Shown: piece by piece, positions 705 to 34,050 of the stretch
How the letters are laid out: every line of letters starts with the position of its first letter
Position numbering within the stretch: the first letter of the stretch is position 1
Virus record (IMG/VR): IMGVR_UViG_3300031972_002040
Coordinates: 1-34,050 of that record
Strand: one strand, 5' to 3'
Source: a virus
Length of the DNA stretch: 34,050 bases
Translations under genes and position numbers: made by a program
The notes under the pieces: generated by a model
Seen by the model: the letters and a program-made list of their open reading frames with translations, nothing else
Told to the model about the DNA's origin: nothing
The model's database searches: none

Positions 705-710
705 GAGCGG

Positions 711-803
711 TGTCGGCTTCGATAAGCTGACCAGAGACGGCGGGGCAGGTTTCTCAGGCCAAGCGCCCCGCCGTCTCCCCAACCGCGCCGGTTAGCCCCG
801 GCG
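711..803 (+). ncRNA. c4: C4-like antisense RNA controlling the antirepressor
   Basis: Three consecutive hairpins: GTCGGCTT/AAGCTGAC (712-719 with 724-731, one G-U pair); a perfect 13-bp stem (734-746 with 765-777) with an 18-base loop; and CGCCGG/CCGGCG (786-791 with 798-803). The 5' edge of the large loop, CAGGTTTCT at 746-754, can pair with AGGAACCTG at 826-834, which contains the ribosome-binding site of the following leader ORF (nine pairs, one G-U). The 3' arm GCCCCGCC (765-772) can also pair with GGCGGGGC at 867-874. In P1/P7, C4 RNA is cut from the icd-ant transcript and blocks its translation by such pairing. An RNA promoter, hairpins, a leader ORF and an antirepressor in this order fit that system. 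The assignment is by layout and complementarity, not by a covariance-model search. Confidence 0.65.
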
Positions 804-836
804 TGATCTGCCACCACGGTTGAAAAGGAACCTGTG

Positions 837-926
837 ATGACGGCTTTTGTTACCACGCAGCCCCCCGGCGGGGCAAAGCCGCTGATGCAGCGGTCCCGCA
901 CTCTTGCGGCGGGTGTTGCGCAATGA
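837..926 (+). CDS. Leader ORF (icd-like position) coupled to the antirepressor
   Basis: 29 codons, MTAFVTTQPPGG...GVAQ, preceded by AAAAGGAA about 8 bases upstream of the ATG. Its TGA overlaps the antirepressor start as ATGA (923-926), so translation of the two should be coupled. Its ribosome-binding site is the target of the proposed C4-like RNA. In P1/P7 the same slot holds icd/orfX, whose translation opens the ant start. No sequence similarity to Icd is claimed. It may act only as a translated leader. Confidence 0.55.
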   Translation: MTAFVTTQPPGGAKPLMQRSRTLAAGVAQ

Positions 927-2143
927 CAAATCGCAACAAGGATCTTCGCGCCATCATCGAGCGCGTCATCGGCGAAGCGGGTTTCGAGTACGAAATTCGC
1001 GGCGGCGGCAAGCACCCGAAGGCGGTGATCTACGCCAACGGGCGAACCTTCACCCACTCGTTTCCCTCCACGCCTAGCGATTATCGCTCGCAATTGAACT
1101 GCGAGGCTGAGCTGCGGAGGCGGCTTCGTGACTTCGGCGTGTCGCTGGCGGCTGACGCTGAGCCGGCGGTTGTCGATCTGGTGGCCGAGCCGGTCGCCGC
1201 CGTGCCGCCCGCTGCGGTCGATCACGGCGCGGTGCAGGTCATCCACTTCAACGGTGCCGCTATCGAGACGATGGAGGTCAACGGCGAGCCGCATGTGGCG
1301 CTGAAGCCGATCGTTGAGGGGATGGGACTGGCATGGAACGCTCAGCTTGAGCGAGTGAAGCGCGACCCGGTCTTGTCGGAAGGTATGCGCGTGACACGCA
1401 TACCTTCTTCGGGTGGCGCGCAGCAGGCGGCGATGATCCCGCTGAAGATGCTGAACGGTTTCCTCTTTGGGATTGATTCTGGCCGCGTGAAGCCTGCCGT
1501 CCGCGACGGCGTCATCGCCTACCAGCGCGAATGCTACGACGCGCTTTCCGCCTACTGGATGACCGGCGCGGCGGTGAAGGGCGAGGTGGGCGCGCTAGCG
1601 GCGCCTGATGACGATAGCTTCGAGATGATGCGGATGATCGTCGAAGACGCCACCGCCCCTGTGCGGGATGACATCGGCGCCTTGGGCGACATGCTCGCGA
1701 AGCATGGTGATATCGCGCTGTCCGACGCGAACAAGCGCGCGATCGGCGGCGTGGTGAAGAACATTGTCGGCCCTATCGTCCGCGAGTTGGCTGCGCTTCG
1801 CGAACGCGGGGCCGCTCTCGGCAGCTACGACATGACCGGCCGCGTCACCGCGAGCCAGATCCTCACGATGGCAGGTGTTCCTGAAAAGGGGCGGGTTCGT
1901 GGCGCCGCTCAGCGCGTCACCGGCTCCATGAACCGCAGCGGCTACGCCAAGGACGGCGACCGGATGCCGGCACAATTCAACCCGGCCCAGCCGTGGACGT
2001 GGCCGATCGGCGACGCCCGCAAGTGGCTGGAGAACGGCGGGCGCCACATGGTCCTGGCCGACCATCACCGGGCTCAGGTGGCAAAGGGCGCCAAGGACGG
2101 CGGTCAGGGTGTCCTGCATTTCGACCCGCGGGGGAACGCCTGA
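923..2143 (+). CDS. ant: Phage antirepressor, HicA-like N-terminus plus P22_AR_N domain
   Basis: 406 residues in three parts. Residues 1-75 (GGGKHPKAVI, then FPSTPSDYR) look like the small double-stranded-RNA-binding fold of HicA-type proteins that occur alone in other phages. Residues 106-213 (IHFNGAAIETMEVNGEPHVA, then IPLKMLNGFLFGID) match the P22 antirepressor N-terminal domain (P22_AR_N). After a linker, residues 310-390 (VTASQILTMAGVPEKG...WPIGDARKWL) form a basic C-terminal module, perhaps the repressor- or DNA-binding part. P22 Ant binds and inactivates phage repressors, which promotes lytic growth. The ATG overlaps the leader ORF stop, and upstream RNA hairpins are predicted to control it. 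The N-terminal fusion is the unusual feature; the HicA comparison is tentative. Confidence 0.8.
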   Translation: MTNRNKDLRAIIERVIGEAGFEYEIRGGGKHPKAVIYANGRTFTHSFPSTPSDYRSQLNCEAELRRRLRDFGVSLAADAEPAVVDLVAEPVAAVPPAAVDHGAVQVIHFNGAAIETMEVNGEPHVALKPIVEGMGLAWNAQLERVKRDPVLSEGMRVTRIPSSGGAQQAAMIPLKMLNGFLFGIDSGRVKPAVRDGVIAYQRECYDALSAYWMTGAAVKGEVGALAAPDDDSFEMMRMIVEDATAPVRDDIGALGDMLAKHGDIALSDANKRAIGGVVKNIVGPIVRELAALRERGAALGSYDMTGRVTASQILTMAGVPEKGRVRGAAQRVTGSMNRSGYAKDGDRMPAQFNPAQPWTWPIGDARKWLENGGRHMVLADHHRAQVAKGAKDGGQGVLHFDPRGNA

Positions 2144-4198: not shown

Positions 4199-4326
4199 TC
4201 ACCGCGGCCCGCTGGCACATCTTCCGCGCCCTCTGCCACATCGGCTGGCACATCTGTCCAGAGCCCCGCCGCTCCGAATTACTCGGCTCCATGAGCTATG
4301 ACGAGACCCTATGGAGGCGCAAATGA
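4195..4326 (+). CDS. Small hypothetical protein (43 aa)
   Basis: Forty-three residues, MITAARWHIFRALCHIGWHI...LWRRK, in a chain of four-base overlaps. Three histidines and two cysteines lie in a short helix-like N-terminus. No family is recognised. The last codons carry GGAGG at 4313-4317, the ribosome-binding site of the following NusG-like gene, so translation of the two is linked. Confidence 0.45.
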   Translation: MITAARWHIFRALCHIGWHICPEPRRSELLGSMSYDETLWRRK

Positions 4327-4898
4327 CCAAGGCCGCAACCATCCCGTCTAGCGTGAGCGTAGACGACACCGTATGGCACATCGCCTACACGAACCCCCGC
4401 TCGGAGATCAGCGCCGCCATCCGCCTTGCTGCGGCAGGCTACCGGGCTTTCGCGCCGCACTACTACATCACCAAGCCTCGCGACCATAAGGCGCCGCACA
4501 TCCGGCACCGCGTCCGGCGTCAGGCGTTCACCCGCTACGTCTTCTTCGGCGTCATCAACCCGGACCAGGGCCTCTACGCCGCTGCGAACTGCGTAGGTGT
4601 TCATTCGATGCTGATGAATGGAGACGCCCCCGCCATCGTGTCATCCCGCTTCATGGCTCGGCTCATGGCAAGGTGTGAGCCGGACGGCTGGATGCGATCG
4701 GCAGACGATAACCCTTACCTCACAGAAGAGTTCGAGGCCGGGCAACGTGTGAAAATCACCTTCGGCCCGATGGAAGGGTTGATTGTTCAGATCGCGCGCC
4801 TTGACGGTCGCGATGTTGCTGAGGTAGAACTTGAGATGTTCGGGTCCAGACGGACCGCTAGGGTTGCCACATCGGGGCTCACCGCTGTTGAAGCGTAG
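4323..4898 (+). CDS. NusG-family transcription factor (phage NusG/RfaH paralogue)
   Basis: 191 residues. The start at 4323 is chosen over the in-frame ATG at 4311 because GGAGG lies six bases before it and it forms an ATGA overlap with the previous stop. Residues about 15-115 (VWHIAYTNPRSEISAAIRLA, then GYRAFAPHYY, TRYVFFGV) match a NusG N-terminal domain, which binds the RNA polymerase clamp. Residues about 138-188 (EAGQRVKITFGPMEGLIVQI, then VELEMFGSRRTARV) match the KOW domain. NusG paralogues such as RfaH suppress pausing and termination on specific operons. This gene is the last before a non-coding control region, an intrinsic terminator and the late operon, so a late antitermination role is an attractive inference. 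Confidence 0.8.
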   Translation: MTKAATIPSSVSVDDTVWHIAYTNPRSEISAAIRLAAAGYRAFAPHYYITKPRDHKAPHIRHRVRRQAFTRYVFFGVINPDQGLYAAANCVGVHSMLMNGDAPAIVSSRFMARLMARCEPDGWMRSADDNPYLTEEFEAGQRVKITFGPMEGLIVQIARLDGRDVAEVELEMFGSRRTARVATSGLTAVEA

Positions 4899-5979: not shown

Positions 5980-7177
5980 CCTCGTCATAGACACCCCGAG
6001 GTGGATGCTCCCGGTCTTTGAAAGGCCGTACCGCTACATCGGGATCAAAGGCGGCCGGGCTTCCGGCAAGTCTCACCAGATTGCGCAGTTCATCGTTGAG
6101 GCGATGGTCCTCGACCCGGACTGCCGTGTCGTCTGCATCCGAGAGATCCAGAAGTCTCTGAAGTTCTCGGCTAAGCAGCTCATTGAGGACAAAATCGCAA
6201 GCCTCGGCGTTGGGCACCTGTTCGATGTTCAGGCCGCTGAGATTAAGCGCATAGGCGGCAGTGGGCTGTGCATCTTTCAGGGCGCGCAGGACCACACCGT
6301 TGACAGCATAAAGTCACTCGAAGGGTTCAAAATCTGCTGGGTGGAAGAGGCTCAATCCCTCTCGCACCGCTCACTTAGGCTTATCCGTCCGACGATCAGG
6401 GCGCCGGGCTCGTTCATCATCTTCACCTGGAACCCTGACCAGCCAGACGACGCAGTTGACACGTTCCTTGTGGGGCATGGGCCGCCGGATGACTCGGTGG
6501 TCCTTCACGTCAACTACTCGGACAACCCATGGCTCCCCGATGAGATCAGGGCGGAGTTAGAGCACGACCGGAAGGGCGACCCGGAGACATTCGCCCACGT
6601 CTGGCTCGGTGAGTACAACACCCGGTCGGACGCCCAAATCTTCGCCGGCCGCTACCGTATCGAGGAATTCGAGCCCGGCCCTGATTGGGATGGCCCCTAC
6701 TACGGCGCTGACTTCGGCTTTGCCCAAGATCCGACGATCCTCGTCAAATGCTGGCTGCACGCTGGCAACGTCTGGATCGAGCGAGAGAGTGGCAAGGTCG
6801 GCCTCGACATCGACAAGACCGGCGCGCTGTGGTCGCAGGACATCCCCGAGGCCCAGAAGGCGACCATCCGAGCGGACAGCGCCCGCCCCGAGACGATCAG
6901 CTATCTGAAGCGCCACGACTGGCCCGGAGTCACCGGCGTTGAGAAGTGGAAGGGCAGCGTTGAGGATGGTGTGGCGTGGCTCCAGGCACGCGGGGTGGTG
7001 ATCCATCCTCGCTGCGACAGGGCTCAACGTGAGGCCCGTCTGTACCGCTACAAGACGAACCGCGCGGGCGATGTGCTGGCGCAGGTCGAAGACGCCAACA
7101 ACCACGTCTGGGATGCAGTGAGGTACGCGATGGCGCCGCTCATCAAACGTGGATACACCTACCGGATCGCGCTTTGA
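5972..7177 (+). CDS. terL: Terminase large subunit
   Basis: 401 residues. The N-terminal ATPase has Walker A GGRASGKS (27-34) and Walker B ICWVEEA (121-127), followed by the coupling motif TWNP (152-155). The C-terminal RNase H-like nuclease shows acidic residues in YYGADFGFAQDPT (D247), IRADSARPE (D302) and NNHVWDAVRYA (D381). The sequence fits the PBSX-type family that drives DNA into proheads at the portal and cuts the concatemer. Length and motif order are normal, with no sign of damage. The portal gene starts inside its stop codon (TTGA at 7174-7177). Confidence 0.95.
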   Translation: MADLVIDTPRWMLPVFERPYRYIGIKGGRASGKSHQIAQFIVEAMVLDPDCRVVCIREIQKSLKFSAKQLIEDKIASLGVGHLFDVQAAEIKRIGGSGLCIFQGAQDHTVDSIKSLEGFKICWVEEAQSLSHRSLRLIRPTIRAPGSFIIFTWNPDQPDDAVDTFLVGHGPPDDSVVLHVNYSDNPWLPDEIRAELEHDRKGDPETFAHVWLGEYNTRSDAQIFAGRYRIEEFEPGPDWDGPYYGADFGFAQDPTILVKCWLHAGNVWIERESGKVGLDIDKTGALWSQDIPEAQKATIRADSARPETISYLKRHDWPGVTGVEKWKGSVEDGVAWLQARGVVIHPRCDRAQREARLYRYKTNRAGDVLAQVEDANNHVWDAVRYAMAPLIKRGYTYRIAL

Positions 7178-9072
7178 CCAAGCCCCACTACCGCCGCACG
7201 GCGGACGGCTCGACATTCCGGATCGACGACGGCTACCGAAACCTCGTGGCGAACCTCGGCACCGAGCGGGACAAGGCCGCATGGGGCACCTACGCCACCC
7301 GCGTCCTCAACCCGTATGAGCTGCTGGAGATGTATCGGGGCAGTGCGCTGCCTCGGAAGATCGTCGATATCCCTGCGCTCGACACCGTGCGCAAGTGGCG
7401 CCAGTGGAACGGCGGAGACGATCAGATCACCGCGATCGAGGCTGAGGAGAAGCGCCTCGGCGTCGTTGAGAAGGTCCGTGACGGGAACATTGCAGCACGG
7501 CTCTATGGCGGCGGGGCGATCTACATCAACGTGGGCGACAGCGACGTTTCCCAGCCGCTCAATCCCGAGCGCGTGGGTCTAGGCGGCATCCGCTCGCTCA
7601 CTGTCCTCACCCCGATGCAGCTTTCGCCGGGCGAGATCGGCCGCGACATCGAATCCGACACGTTCGGGCTGCCGGATGACTACCGGCTGACGACGGATAA
7701 AGGGCAGTACCTCACGATCCACCCGTCCCGCCTCGTGATTTTCACCGGGGCATCCGTCCCCGATGCGTGGATGGTCGGCGCAGGGTGGGGCGACAGCGTG
7801 CTCATGTCCACGCTGGACGCGATCCGGCAGACGGACAGCACGGCGGCCAACATCGCCTCGCTGGTGTTCGAAGCCAAGGTGGATGTGATCAGCATCCCCG
7901 GTCTGATGGAGATGATGGAGAGCGCTGCCGCTGAAGCTGCGGTCACATCCCGCCTCGCACTCGGAGCCCGAGCGAAGGGCGTCAACGGCACGCTCATCCT
8001 TGATGCCGGCCGCAACGGCGAAGGCGCTGAGACATACGAGCAGAAGTCCCTCTCGTTCGGCACGCTTCCGGACATCCTCGACCGCTTCATGATCCTCGTG
8101 TCCGGCGCGGCTGACATCCCCGTCACGCGCCTGTTTGGCCGGTCCGCAGCGGGCATGAACGCCACCGGAGAGGGCGACGAGAGGAACTATTACGACAAGA
8201 TCCAGGCGATGCAGGAGCTTGAAGTGTCGCCCGCCATGGCGATCCTCGACGCCTGCCTTGTTCGCTCGGCAACGGGCCGGACGCTGCCGGACGTGTACCA
8301 CGAGTGGCGCCCGCTCCGTCAGGAGACGGCGAAGGAGCGCGCCGAGGTCTTCAAGATGGTTGCCGATGCCGCCCGCGCGCTGATCGGCAACGGGGGCACG
8401 ACGCCTGAGCTGTTGCCGGTTGAGGCGTTGTCTGACGCGCTGGTGAACCGGCTGGTCGAAGACGGCTCGCTGCCGGGCCTTGAAGCCGCGATCGACGAGT
8501 TCGGGCGTCTCGCGGACCAGGAAGACGAGACGGACGGCGCGGAAGCCGCGATGACGCCGCCGCTGATGGTGCCGGCCGAGGAAGCCGAGCAAGAGCGCAC
8601 GGTTTCGGACGCTGCGCCCCGCACGCTCTACGTCAACCGCCGCGTCGTGAATGCGGACGAGATCATCGCTTGGGCGAAGGCGCAAGGGTTCGAGACGACG
8701 CTGCCGGCCGATGACCTCCACGTCACCATCGCGTTCAGCCGCAAGCCGGTTGATTGGATGGCGATCGGTGAGCCGTGGGCCGCTGAGCTGACGATACACC
8801 CTGGCGGGCCGCGCCTGATGGAACGGTTCGGTGATGCGCAGGTGCTGCTGTTCGCCTCGTCTGAGTTGAAGTGGCGGCATGACGCAATCCGTGAGGCGGG
8901 TGCCTCGTGGGATCACGCCGAGTACCAGCCGCACATCACGATCAGCTACACCGGGCACCCGGATTTCGAGAGCGTCCAACCTTACCAGGGCCGCATCGTG
9001 CTCGGCCCTGAGCGGTTTGAAGAGGTCAAAGAGGACTGGGCCGCCAGCCTCACGGAAGACCAAGCGGAATAG
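7174..9072 (+). CDS. Portal protein fused to an Acb1-like 2H phosphodiesterase
   Basis: 632 residues from a TTG start inside the terL stop; the next in-frame ATG is far downstream, so TTG is needed. Residues about 40-410 match the DUF1073-type portal (ALPRKIVDIPALDTVRKWRQ, then ARLYGGGAIYI, AGMNATGEGDERNYYDKIQ), the dodecameric gate for DNA packaging. An acidic linker (about 430-480) leads to a C-terminal domain with two H-x-T motifs: HVT (516-518, in LHVTIAF) and HIT (587-589, in PHITISY), 71 residues apart. This is the active-site signature of 2H phosphoesterases, including T4 Acb1, which destroys the cyclic nucleotide signals of CBASS defence. Such portal-Acb1 fusions form a recognised family. 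Whether this domain is active on cyclic nucleotides is inference. Confidence 0.88.
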   Translation: MTKPHYRRTADGSTFRIDDGYRNLVANLGTERDKAAWGTYATRVLNPYELLEMYRGSALPRKIVDIPALDTVRKWRQWNGGDDQITAIEAEEKRLGVVEKVRDGNIAARLYGGGAIYINVGDSDVSQPLNPERVGLGGIRSLTVLTPMQLSPGEIGRDIESDTFGLPDDYRLTTDKGQYLTIHPSRLVIFTGASVPDAWMVGAGWGDSVLMSTLDAIRQTDSTAANIASLVFEAKVDVISIPGLMEMMESAAAEAAVTSRLALGARAKGVNGTLILDAGRNGEGAETYEQKSLSFGTLPDILDRFMILVSGAADIPVTRLFGRSAAGMNATGEGDERNYYDKIQAMQELEVSPAMAILDACLVRSATGRTLPDVYHEWRPLRQETAKERAEVFKMVADAARALIGNGGTTPELLPVEALSDALVNRLVEDGSLPGLEAAIDEFGRLADQEDETDGAEAAMTPPLMVPAEEAEQERTVSDAAPRTLYVNRRVVNADEIIAWAKAQGFETTLPADDLHVTIAFSRKPVDWMAIGEPWAAELTIHPGGPRLMERFGDAQVLLFASSELKWRHDAIREAGASWDHAEYQPHITISYTGHPDFESVQPYQGRIVLGPERFEEVKEDWAASLTEDQAE

Positions 9073-11623: not shown

Positions 11624-11678
11624 TCGGCAGGGCGGTCCGCCGCCCTTCCATCTCTTCGCTTGGCTCATGGGGACACTG

Positions 11679-32880: not shown

Positions 32881-33086
32881 ACGGAACCGCTTCGGAACCG
32901 TTTCGCGCGAACGAACCGTGATTAGGCGCCTCCGTAGATCCGCCAAAGCGCCCGGTTTCTGCGGGCCTGCGTCAGGCGAGCCTCCTTTGTAATCAGGGGG
33001 TCGGGGGTTCGAGTCCCTCAGCCGGCACCAGTACTTAGCCCGCCTTGGTGCCCCTTACGGAACCGCTTACGGTACCGTTTCGCCGG
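32881..33086 (+). other. attP: Phage attachment site attP: tRNA-Thr 3' core with flanking arm repeats
   Basis: Bases 32986-33030 match the 3' part of a tRNA-Thr(UGU): anticodon loop TTTGTAA (anticodon 32988-32990), the T arm with GGTTCGAGTCC, and acceptor strand AGCCGGC with ACCA. The sequence to the left is not tRNA-like, so only the attachment core is present. On both sides lie imperfect 30-base direct repeats, each with two copies of an 8-base unit: CGGAACCG at 32882 and 32893 on the left; CGGAACCG at 33058 and CGGTACCG at 33070 on the right. A further CGAACCG lies at 32912. These look like arm-type integrase sites around a core. The right arm lies inside the integrase 3' end. Confidence 0.75.
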
Positions 33087-34050
33087 CTCATCGCTCGGTG
33101 GACCGATTGCTGGTGGTCGGGGTGGTGATGGCCATACACCTCCTCGATCACCTTCATCGTGACGCCGAAATAGCCCGAGACCTCCCACCGATCGGCGCCG
33201 GCCTGCATGGCCCAGGTGATCGCGGTGTGGCGTAGGCAATGAGGCGTCACGTCGTCGGACAGCTTCGCCCGCGACACCGCCCGCGCGAAAGATTTCTTGA
33301 TGCTGCCGACTGGCTCGCCCTTCCATGAGATGACGTGGCGGTCCCGGTTAAAGCGGTTCCGGTGGCGGCGCAGGTGGGCGATAAGCTGGGACGGCAGGCG
33401 CACTGTCGTCTTGCGCTTGTTGCTGGCCCGCTCGCCGTCTGCCGATCGGTGGAACACACCGGCCTCAAGGTCGATCCAGCCACGCCCGGGTAGCGGTTCC
33501 CAGGAGGCGTTCAGGATCGCGCCCGAGCGCGTCCCGGTGTAGCGGCCGATCAGGATGAACAGGGCGAGGTGACGGCTCTCAGGGAACGTCCTGGCGGCCT
33601 TGATGAGCCGGGCCATCTCCGATCGCGTCAACCACCGCTCGCGCGGCTTACCGCTCGGCGGGACCCGGACCGGAACCACGGTCGAGATGATGCTCTGGTG
33701 GGCGGCATAGCGGATGGCGGCGCGGAGATAGGCGAGCTCGCGAGCGGCGGCGGTTCTGGCGCCGCGGTGCGCGGTATACTCGGCGCAGAGCGTGTCGCTC
33801 ACCTCGGTGACGGCTTTGGCGCCCCACCATTCGTTCAGGCGGGCGATCTGGCCCCGCAGTTCGTCGGGCCGGGCCACGCTGGCGTGCTTGTGCTGGTAGT
33901 AGGCGATGAGCACGTCCGCGATCGGCGTGTCGTTGATGTCGCGGTTGCGAGCGGCGGCCGCGTCTCGGGCGTGTCGCTCGGCAAGGTATTGGGCTAGCGC
34001 GCGCTCGGCGCCTGCAAGATCGTCTTTAGCGCATCCTGTGCTGCGGCGTG
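33035..34050 (-). CDS. int: Tyrosine-family integrase (5' end beyond the window)
   Basis: The frame is open from the right edge to TAA at 33035-33037, giving at least 337 residues. An internal GTG at 33913 is not the true start, since coding sequence continues upstream (LAQYLAERHARDAAAARNRD). An N-terminal SAM-like helical domain leads to the catalytic domain with GRYTGTRSGAIL (arginine I), PHCLRHTAITW (H-x-x-R) and VIEEVYGHHHP, whose tyrosine codon is at 33134-33136. It would recombine attP with the tRNA-Thr gene. The stop is five bases from the att core, and its last codons carry the right-hand arm repeats. Confidence 0.93.
   Translation of the reverse strand, partial: RRSTGCAKDDLAGAERALAQYLAERHARDAAAARNRDINDTPIADVLIAYYQHKHASVARPDELRGQIARLNEWWGAKAVTEVSDTLCAEYTAHRGARTAAARELAYLRAAIRYAAHQSIISTVVPVRVPPSGKPRERWLTRSEMARLIKAARTFPESRHLALFILIGRYTGTRSGAILNASWEPLPGRGWIDLEAGVFHRSADGERASNKRKTTVRLPSQLIAHLRRHRNRFNRDRHVISWKGEPVGSIKKSFARAVSRAKLSDDVTPHCLRHTAITWAMQAGADRWEVSGYFGVTMKVIEEVYGHHHPDHQQSVHRAMSRRNGTVSGSVRGTKAG

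Follow-up and report, generated by a model that had tools for sequence, protein, structure and literature searches.

Organization of the antirepressor locus

The window analysed here, that is, the whole stretch of DNA examined, is a virus record of 34,050 bases. It carries terminase, portal, capsid, tape measure, endolysin and integrase (33035-33913) genes of a temperate, siphovirus-like phage. The locus described below lies on the plus strand and consists of a predicted promoter, a structured leader, a short open reading frame (leader ORF) and a gene for a P22-type antirepressor (ant).

The ant gene (923-2143) encodes 406 amino acids, and its product is a clear member of the P22-type antirepressor family PF10547 (E = 4.6e-33; 114 bits against a curated cut-off of 30.7); it also matches phrog_524, 'anti-repressor Ant' (8.8e-44). 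Compared with other PF10547 antirepressors, it has an extra N-terminal domain of approximately 100 residues containing a GKHP motif (window 923-1230). The nearest relatives, with 61-68% identity, were found in loci L089 (from a Mesorhizobium) and L090/L009 (L090 from Kaistia). In L009 (2171-2410) and L089 (2170-2385) these N-terminal residues are encoded by a separate ORF overlapping or adjacent to ant on its upstream side, and the window gene therefore looks like a fusion. When the antirepressor was sought in 385 alphaproteobacterial genomes, the known locus was the sole result. Inside the ant coding sequence there is also a perfect 11-bp inverted repeat, GAAGGTATGCG-N7-CGCATACCTTC (1379-1407), which might possibly serve as an operator or attenuator.

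The leader ORF (837-926) has 29 codons from ATG to TGA, encodes MTAFVTTQPPGGAKPLMQRSRTLAAGVAQ and is preceded by a well-spaced Shine-Dalgarno (SD) sequence, AAAAGGA (823-829). Its stop codon overlaps the ant start in the tetranucleotide ATGA (923-926), as the preliminary description of this DNA had proposed, and the PF10547 match supports the identity of the downstream gene assumed there. Nearly all of the ant start region is paired in the predicted fold, and a weak, GC-rich SD-like stretch lies within it. A search of 50,697 phage records with the leader-ORF product gave only two matches, both weak (E 10) and to Stenotrophomonas phage SMA6; a search of plasmids gave zero matches at E 10, and nothing credible was obtained overall. 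No relationship to the Icd protein of phage P1 emerged from these searches.

Two other genes of this phage were observed in passing. The product of window 4311-4898, located ahead of the terminase genes, is a NusG-like transcription factor (PF02357, 3.9e-7) that also matches phrog_6386, 'transcription antiterminator' (2.4e-18). The portal protein (window 7174-9072) has a C-terminal Acb1 domain, an anti-CBASS 2H phosphoesterase (PF23474, 5e-43, residues 483-624), in which both HxT motifs are present (residues 516-518 and 587-589).

Predicted structure of the leader RNA

A perfect -10 box, TATAAT (699-704), is the sole exact copy of this hexamer on both strands of the 34 kb and would belong to the leader promoter, with a predicted transcription start near 710-712. 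No -35 box was found at consensus spacing before it, which counts against the reading proposed below. The minimum-energy fold of the following RNA comprises three side-by-side hairpins: hairpin A (712-731, 8 bp), hairpin B (734-777), in which a perfect 13-bp stem closes a single loop of 18 nt, and hairpin C (784-805, 8 bp). The -10 box, the three hairpins and the leader ORF were thus each located exactly where the preliminary description had placed them, and all of its coordinates were correct. The structure is unusually stable for this genome: the RNA at 706-840 has a folding z score of -4.68 and was equalled by none of 200 shuffles, and when 618 stretches of 110 nt were sampled from the phage, just one was more stable than 705-814. 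Perfect inverted repeats of at least 11 bp occur four times in the phage, hairpin 734-777 being among them. A weak inner hairpin is predicted to take up part of the hairpin B loop, a further point against our preferred reading.

No intrinsic terminator was detected for the leader RNA, and none of the three hairpins is followed by a U-tract. Similarly, we identified no processing site that would free a small RNA from the leader, which also weakens the reading favoured here. At most, the CC-rich motif CCCCAA directly 3' of the hairpin B stem hints at processing by RNase P.

Homologs of the element were found neither in phages nor in 289 alphaproteobacterial genomes or viral contigs, and this result must be counted against the proposed function. 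Matches to mycobacteriophage DNA spanned just the 36-nt inverted repeat. Eighteen weak DNA matches were obtained in the 289 alphaproteobacterial genomes; eight were inspected and all of these were unrelated. An exact-pattern search of viral contigs and a search with a single-sequence model (R1) gave no relatives of the element, and none of the loci reached through relatives of the portal protein had an upstream region that matched. In L089 and L090/L009, the sequence upstream of ant contains no such RNA and ant follows another ORF, which again argues against the best reading.

Complementarity between the hairpin loop and the ribosome-binding site

The leader contains an anti-RBS sequence, CAGGTTTCT (746-754), that is complementary to AGGAACCTG (826-834), the latter including the SD sequence of the leader ORF. 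The two sequences pair over 9 nt with one G-U, and eight of the nine pairing bases of 746-754 fall within the 18-nt apical loop of hairpin B. The target region is predicted to be largely unpaired at 823-828.

The preliminary description had noticed this match by eye, and we found it to be above chance by its length (P ~0.001-0.01). A 9-nt loop/RBS match arose in 0.14% of loop shuffles and was reached by 0.10% of random phage 20-mers (P ~0.001), by 1.0% of whole-RNA shuffles (P ~0.01) and at 1.9% of arbitrary window positions; only one of 82 foreign RBS regions was matched over 9 nt by the window RNA. Total duplex energy alone was not significant relative to shuffles (P ~0.12-0.14) because GC-rich shuffles also pair strongly. 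Energy being non-significant in such GC-rich DNA, we instead judged the match by where it lies and by how many bases pair without interruption.

The window target extends from the SD sequence to 2 nt short of the start codon, whereas the targets of C4 and sRNA-Xcc1 RNAs usually end 6-10 nt upstream of the start codon; this difference counts against a role of the same kind. A second contact is possible between CAACCG (780-785) and CGGTTG (817-822), which lies just 5' of the RBS and forms the second block of the best duplex. Its order fits a two-part contact, and it adds no significance by itself. Another second contact suggested earlier, between 765-772 and 867-874, was rejected because the 8-mer recurs by composition, being found five times in the window, and because 765-772 is fully paired within the closed stem. 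A 9-nt loop match was also noted before an ORF at 11667; it involves a different part of the loop, lies off the SD sequence and was taken as chance.

Antisense leaders upstream of related antirepressors

In further relatives of ant, a C4 RNA (RF01695) or an sRNA-Xcc1 RNA (RF02221) is present directly upstream of the gene. From such antirepressor-adjacent copies we built two models, R2 (sRNA-Xcc1) and R3 (C4), which gave 44 and 14 matches, respectively, across the loci searched. We then compared the longest loop/RBS match of cognate pairs with that of non-cognate pairs, after collapsing similar RBS sequences, using 50,000 permutations. The cognate match averaged 7.6 nt against 5.2 nt for non-cognate pairs in C4 (n = 12) and 7.5 nt against 5.7 nt in sRNA-Xcc1 (n = 21); in neither family did any of the 50,000 permutations reach the observed mean. 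The loop thus co-varies with the downstream RBS in both families, the part involved in sRNA-Xcc1 being the P3 loop. Examples include CTCCTTTGA/TCAAAGGAG and TTCCTGTAC/GTACAGGAG for C4, and TCTTTGTCT/AGACAAAGG (L068), TTCTGTTTG/CAAACAGGA and CTAGTCG/CGACTAG for sRNA-Xcc1. Exceptions to this rule were observed in a few loci (L018, L053, L059 and L016).

One locus, L007, provides a precedent for the arrangement in the window. There, an ORF (1031-1510) lies upstream of a P22-type ant gene (1507) and overlaps it by ATGA, and the RBS of this ORF is matched over 11 nt by a C4 RNA (889-976). This is the layout of the window.

Accounts of the sRNA-Xcc1 family usually describe a trans-acting sRNA that is linked to virulence or carried by integrons. 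Recent work has likewise treated it as virulence-linked (PMC12189769). Here, it was found before P22-type antirepressors at L002:1354-1440, L056:2374-2463, L068:2362-2450, L131:2062-2144 and approximately 27 other loci, and on the basis of these loci sRNA-Xcc1 in prophages looks like a C4-like antisense leader of antirepressors. No report of this role, and no paper mentioning both sRNA-Xcc1 and antirepressors, was found in the literature searched. The location before antirepressors and the RBS-co-varying loop give the family a directly testable function, and call for caution when its targets are predicted on the assumption that it regulates virulence.

Some other leaders were also noted. In L018, L048, L050 and L060, isrK (RF01394) occurs in tandem before C4 (RF01695), just upstream of a P22-type antirepressor. 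The ant leaders of L051, L082, L096 and L101 show 7-10 nt of anti-RBS complementarity with neither R2 nor R3 matching, such as TCCTTTTTGA/TCAAAAAGGA in L096 and GCCTCCG/CGGAGGC in L101, and are possibly additional uncatalogued antisense leaders. As a group, the 45 ant leaders unmatched by either model gave a permutation P of 0.04 for anti-RBS complementarity.

Proposed control of the antirepressor

With a probability of roughly 0.6, we propose that the region at ~711-812 encodes an uncatalogued C4-like antisense leader RNA, and that this RNA blocks translation of the leader ORF and, by translational coupling, of the antirepressor. The promoter with the perfect -10 box would start the leader RNA, in which hairpin B would present CAGGUUUCU; this would pair with AGGAACCUG, located at the leader-ORF ribosome-binding site. 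Such pairing would halt translation of the leader ORF, either in trans by a processed small RNA, in cis, or both. Since ant starts within the stop codon of the leader ORF (AUGA) and its own start is buried in predicted structure, synthesis of the antirepressor would depend mainly on ribosomes that have passed through the leader ORF. Given this coupling and the paired ant start, repression of the leader ORF would silence ant, and with the antirepressor off, lysogeny and superinfection immunity would be favored. Because neither a close relative of the element nor a transcript was found, we can only infer the action in trans. If the proposal is true, current annotation cannot detect the RNA that governs the exit of this phage from lysogeny.

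Among the alternatives, a switch acting in cis only appears to be the strongest, and we consider it unlikely. According to this explanation, the element belongs to the ant mRNA, its loop forms a pseudoknot by folding forward onto the RBS, and no separate small RNA acts in trans. Loop and RBS are approximately 70 nt apart on one transcript, where contact would be easy, neither a terminator nor a processing site was located, and in the isrK-orf45-anrP system the RBS is indeed controlled by alternative cis folds (PMC4825925). However, the C4 RNA of P1 is trans-acting (PMC8546580) and the C4-type RNAs of A. baumannii accumulate in processed form (PMC5320573), and the strong, closed hairpin B is shaped like a stable, independent RNA.

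A still less probable explanation is that the hairpins form a transcription attenuator or a processing or protein-binding site and that the loop/RBS match is coincidental: the whole-RNA shuffle P of 0.01 is only moderate given that the feature was chosen by eye, and other perfect inverted repeats exist in the phage, but the missing U-tracts, the position of the match on an apical loop and an SD sequence, as in C4 and sRNA-Xcc1, and the 0.1% frequency among random phage 20-mers speak against it.

Relationship to RNA families

The window RNA was compared with covariance models of the candidate families. At the gathering thresholds of Rfam (45 bits for C4, RF01695; 53 bits for sRNA-Xcc1, RF02221; 50 bits for isrK, RF01394), none of the three families matched, and no match was obtained even to E 10 on 600-1000/700-840. 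The C4 scan suggested in the preliminary description was therefore negative. When the whole phage was scanned with filters off, hairpin B was the best match of R2 (15.6 bits, E = 0.027) and the second-best match of R3 (11.6 bits, E = 0.37).

These scores bear on the possibility, to which we give little credence, that the element is a genuine member of the C4 or sRNA-Xcc1 family whose second hairpin has been lost and whose sequence has drifted past the reach of the models. Besides ranking hairpin B so highly, both models place its stem on P1 and CCCCAA on the conserved CC-rich 3' flank. Nevertheless, the alignments cover the outer stem alone and skip 48-58 model positions, Rfam gives no C4 or sRNA-Xcc1 match, the opposite-strand copy of the hairpin B stem scores 6-7 bits, and unrelated phage sites reach 12-14 bits.

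The window RNA shares with C4 a loop complementary to the target RBS and a position upstream of a phage antirepressor. The earlier label 'C4-type' holds as a mode of action, in view of the above-chance pairing, the layout and the leaders of the relatives, and fails as family membership. The earlier interpretation is thus partly supported: the element would work like C4 yet cannot be placed in that family. These data suggest that antisense leaders should be sought by the grammar of loop and RBS rather than by a family model.

Comparison with known systems

The layout of the window resembles c4-icd-ant of P1. As in the C4 systems of P1/P7, a structured RNA with an RBS-complementary loop lies just 5' of a short ORF and an antirepressor, and C4 copies themselves precede P22-type antirepressors among the relatives of the window ant. 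In C4, according to the P1/P7 work as cited in PMC5320573, RNase P cuts at the base of P1, the b' loop covers the RBS and a' binds upstream of the RBS. Unlike C4, the window RNA lacks a covariance-model match, its target sits between the SD sequence and the start codon, and its fold has one long single-loop stem instead of the nested architecture in which a P1 stem encloses P2 and P3.

With sRNA-Xcc1, the window RNA has in common the position upstream of P22-type antirepressors and the loop/RBS rule. It differs in having no conserved AUACAAuACC...GGGAAAUA segment, the outer stem alone being alignable, and in its predicted target, which for sRNA-Xcc1 is usually the ant RBS and for the window RNA is the RBS of the leader ORF.

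A third comparison can be made with isrK-orf45-anrP of the Salmonella prophage Gifsy-1, in which orf45 overlaps anrP as AUGA and its translation is required for anrP (PMC4825925). The short ORF in the window overlaps the antirepressor in the same way. In Gifsy-1 an RNA controls both the ORF and the antirepressor by coupling (PMC4825925), and comparable RNA control at the leader ORF RBS would operate in the window. However, the window contains no match to isrK, and IsrK of Gifsy-1 acts in trans as an activator, in contrast to the repression proposed for the window.

Systems of this kind are already known; the window RNA is uncatalogued and different in architecture. It is conceivable, at somewhat less than even odds, that anti-RBS leaders are a recurrent means of controlling P22-type antirepressors, with C4, sRNA-Xcc1 and the window RNA as separate architectures that are either convergent or rewired, the window RNA being the first example of a third kind that is absent from the catalogues.
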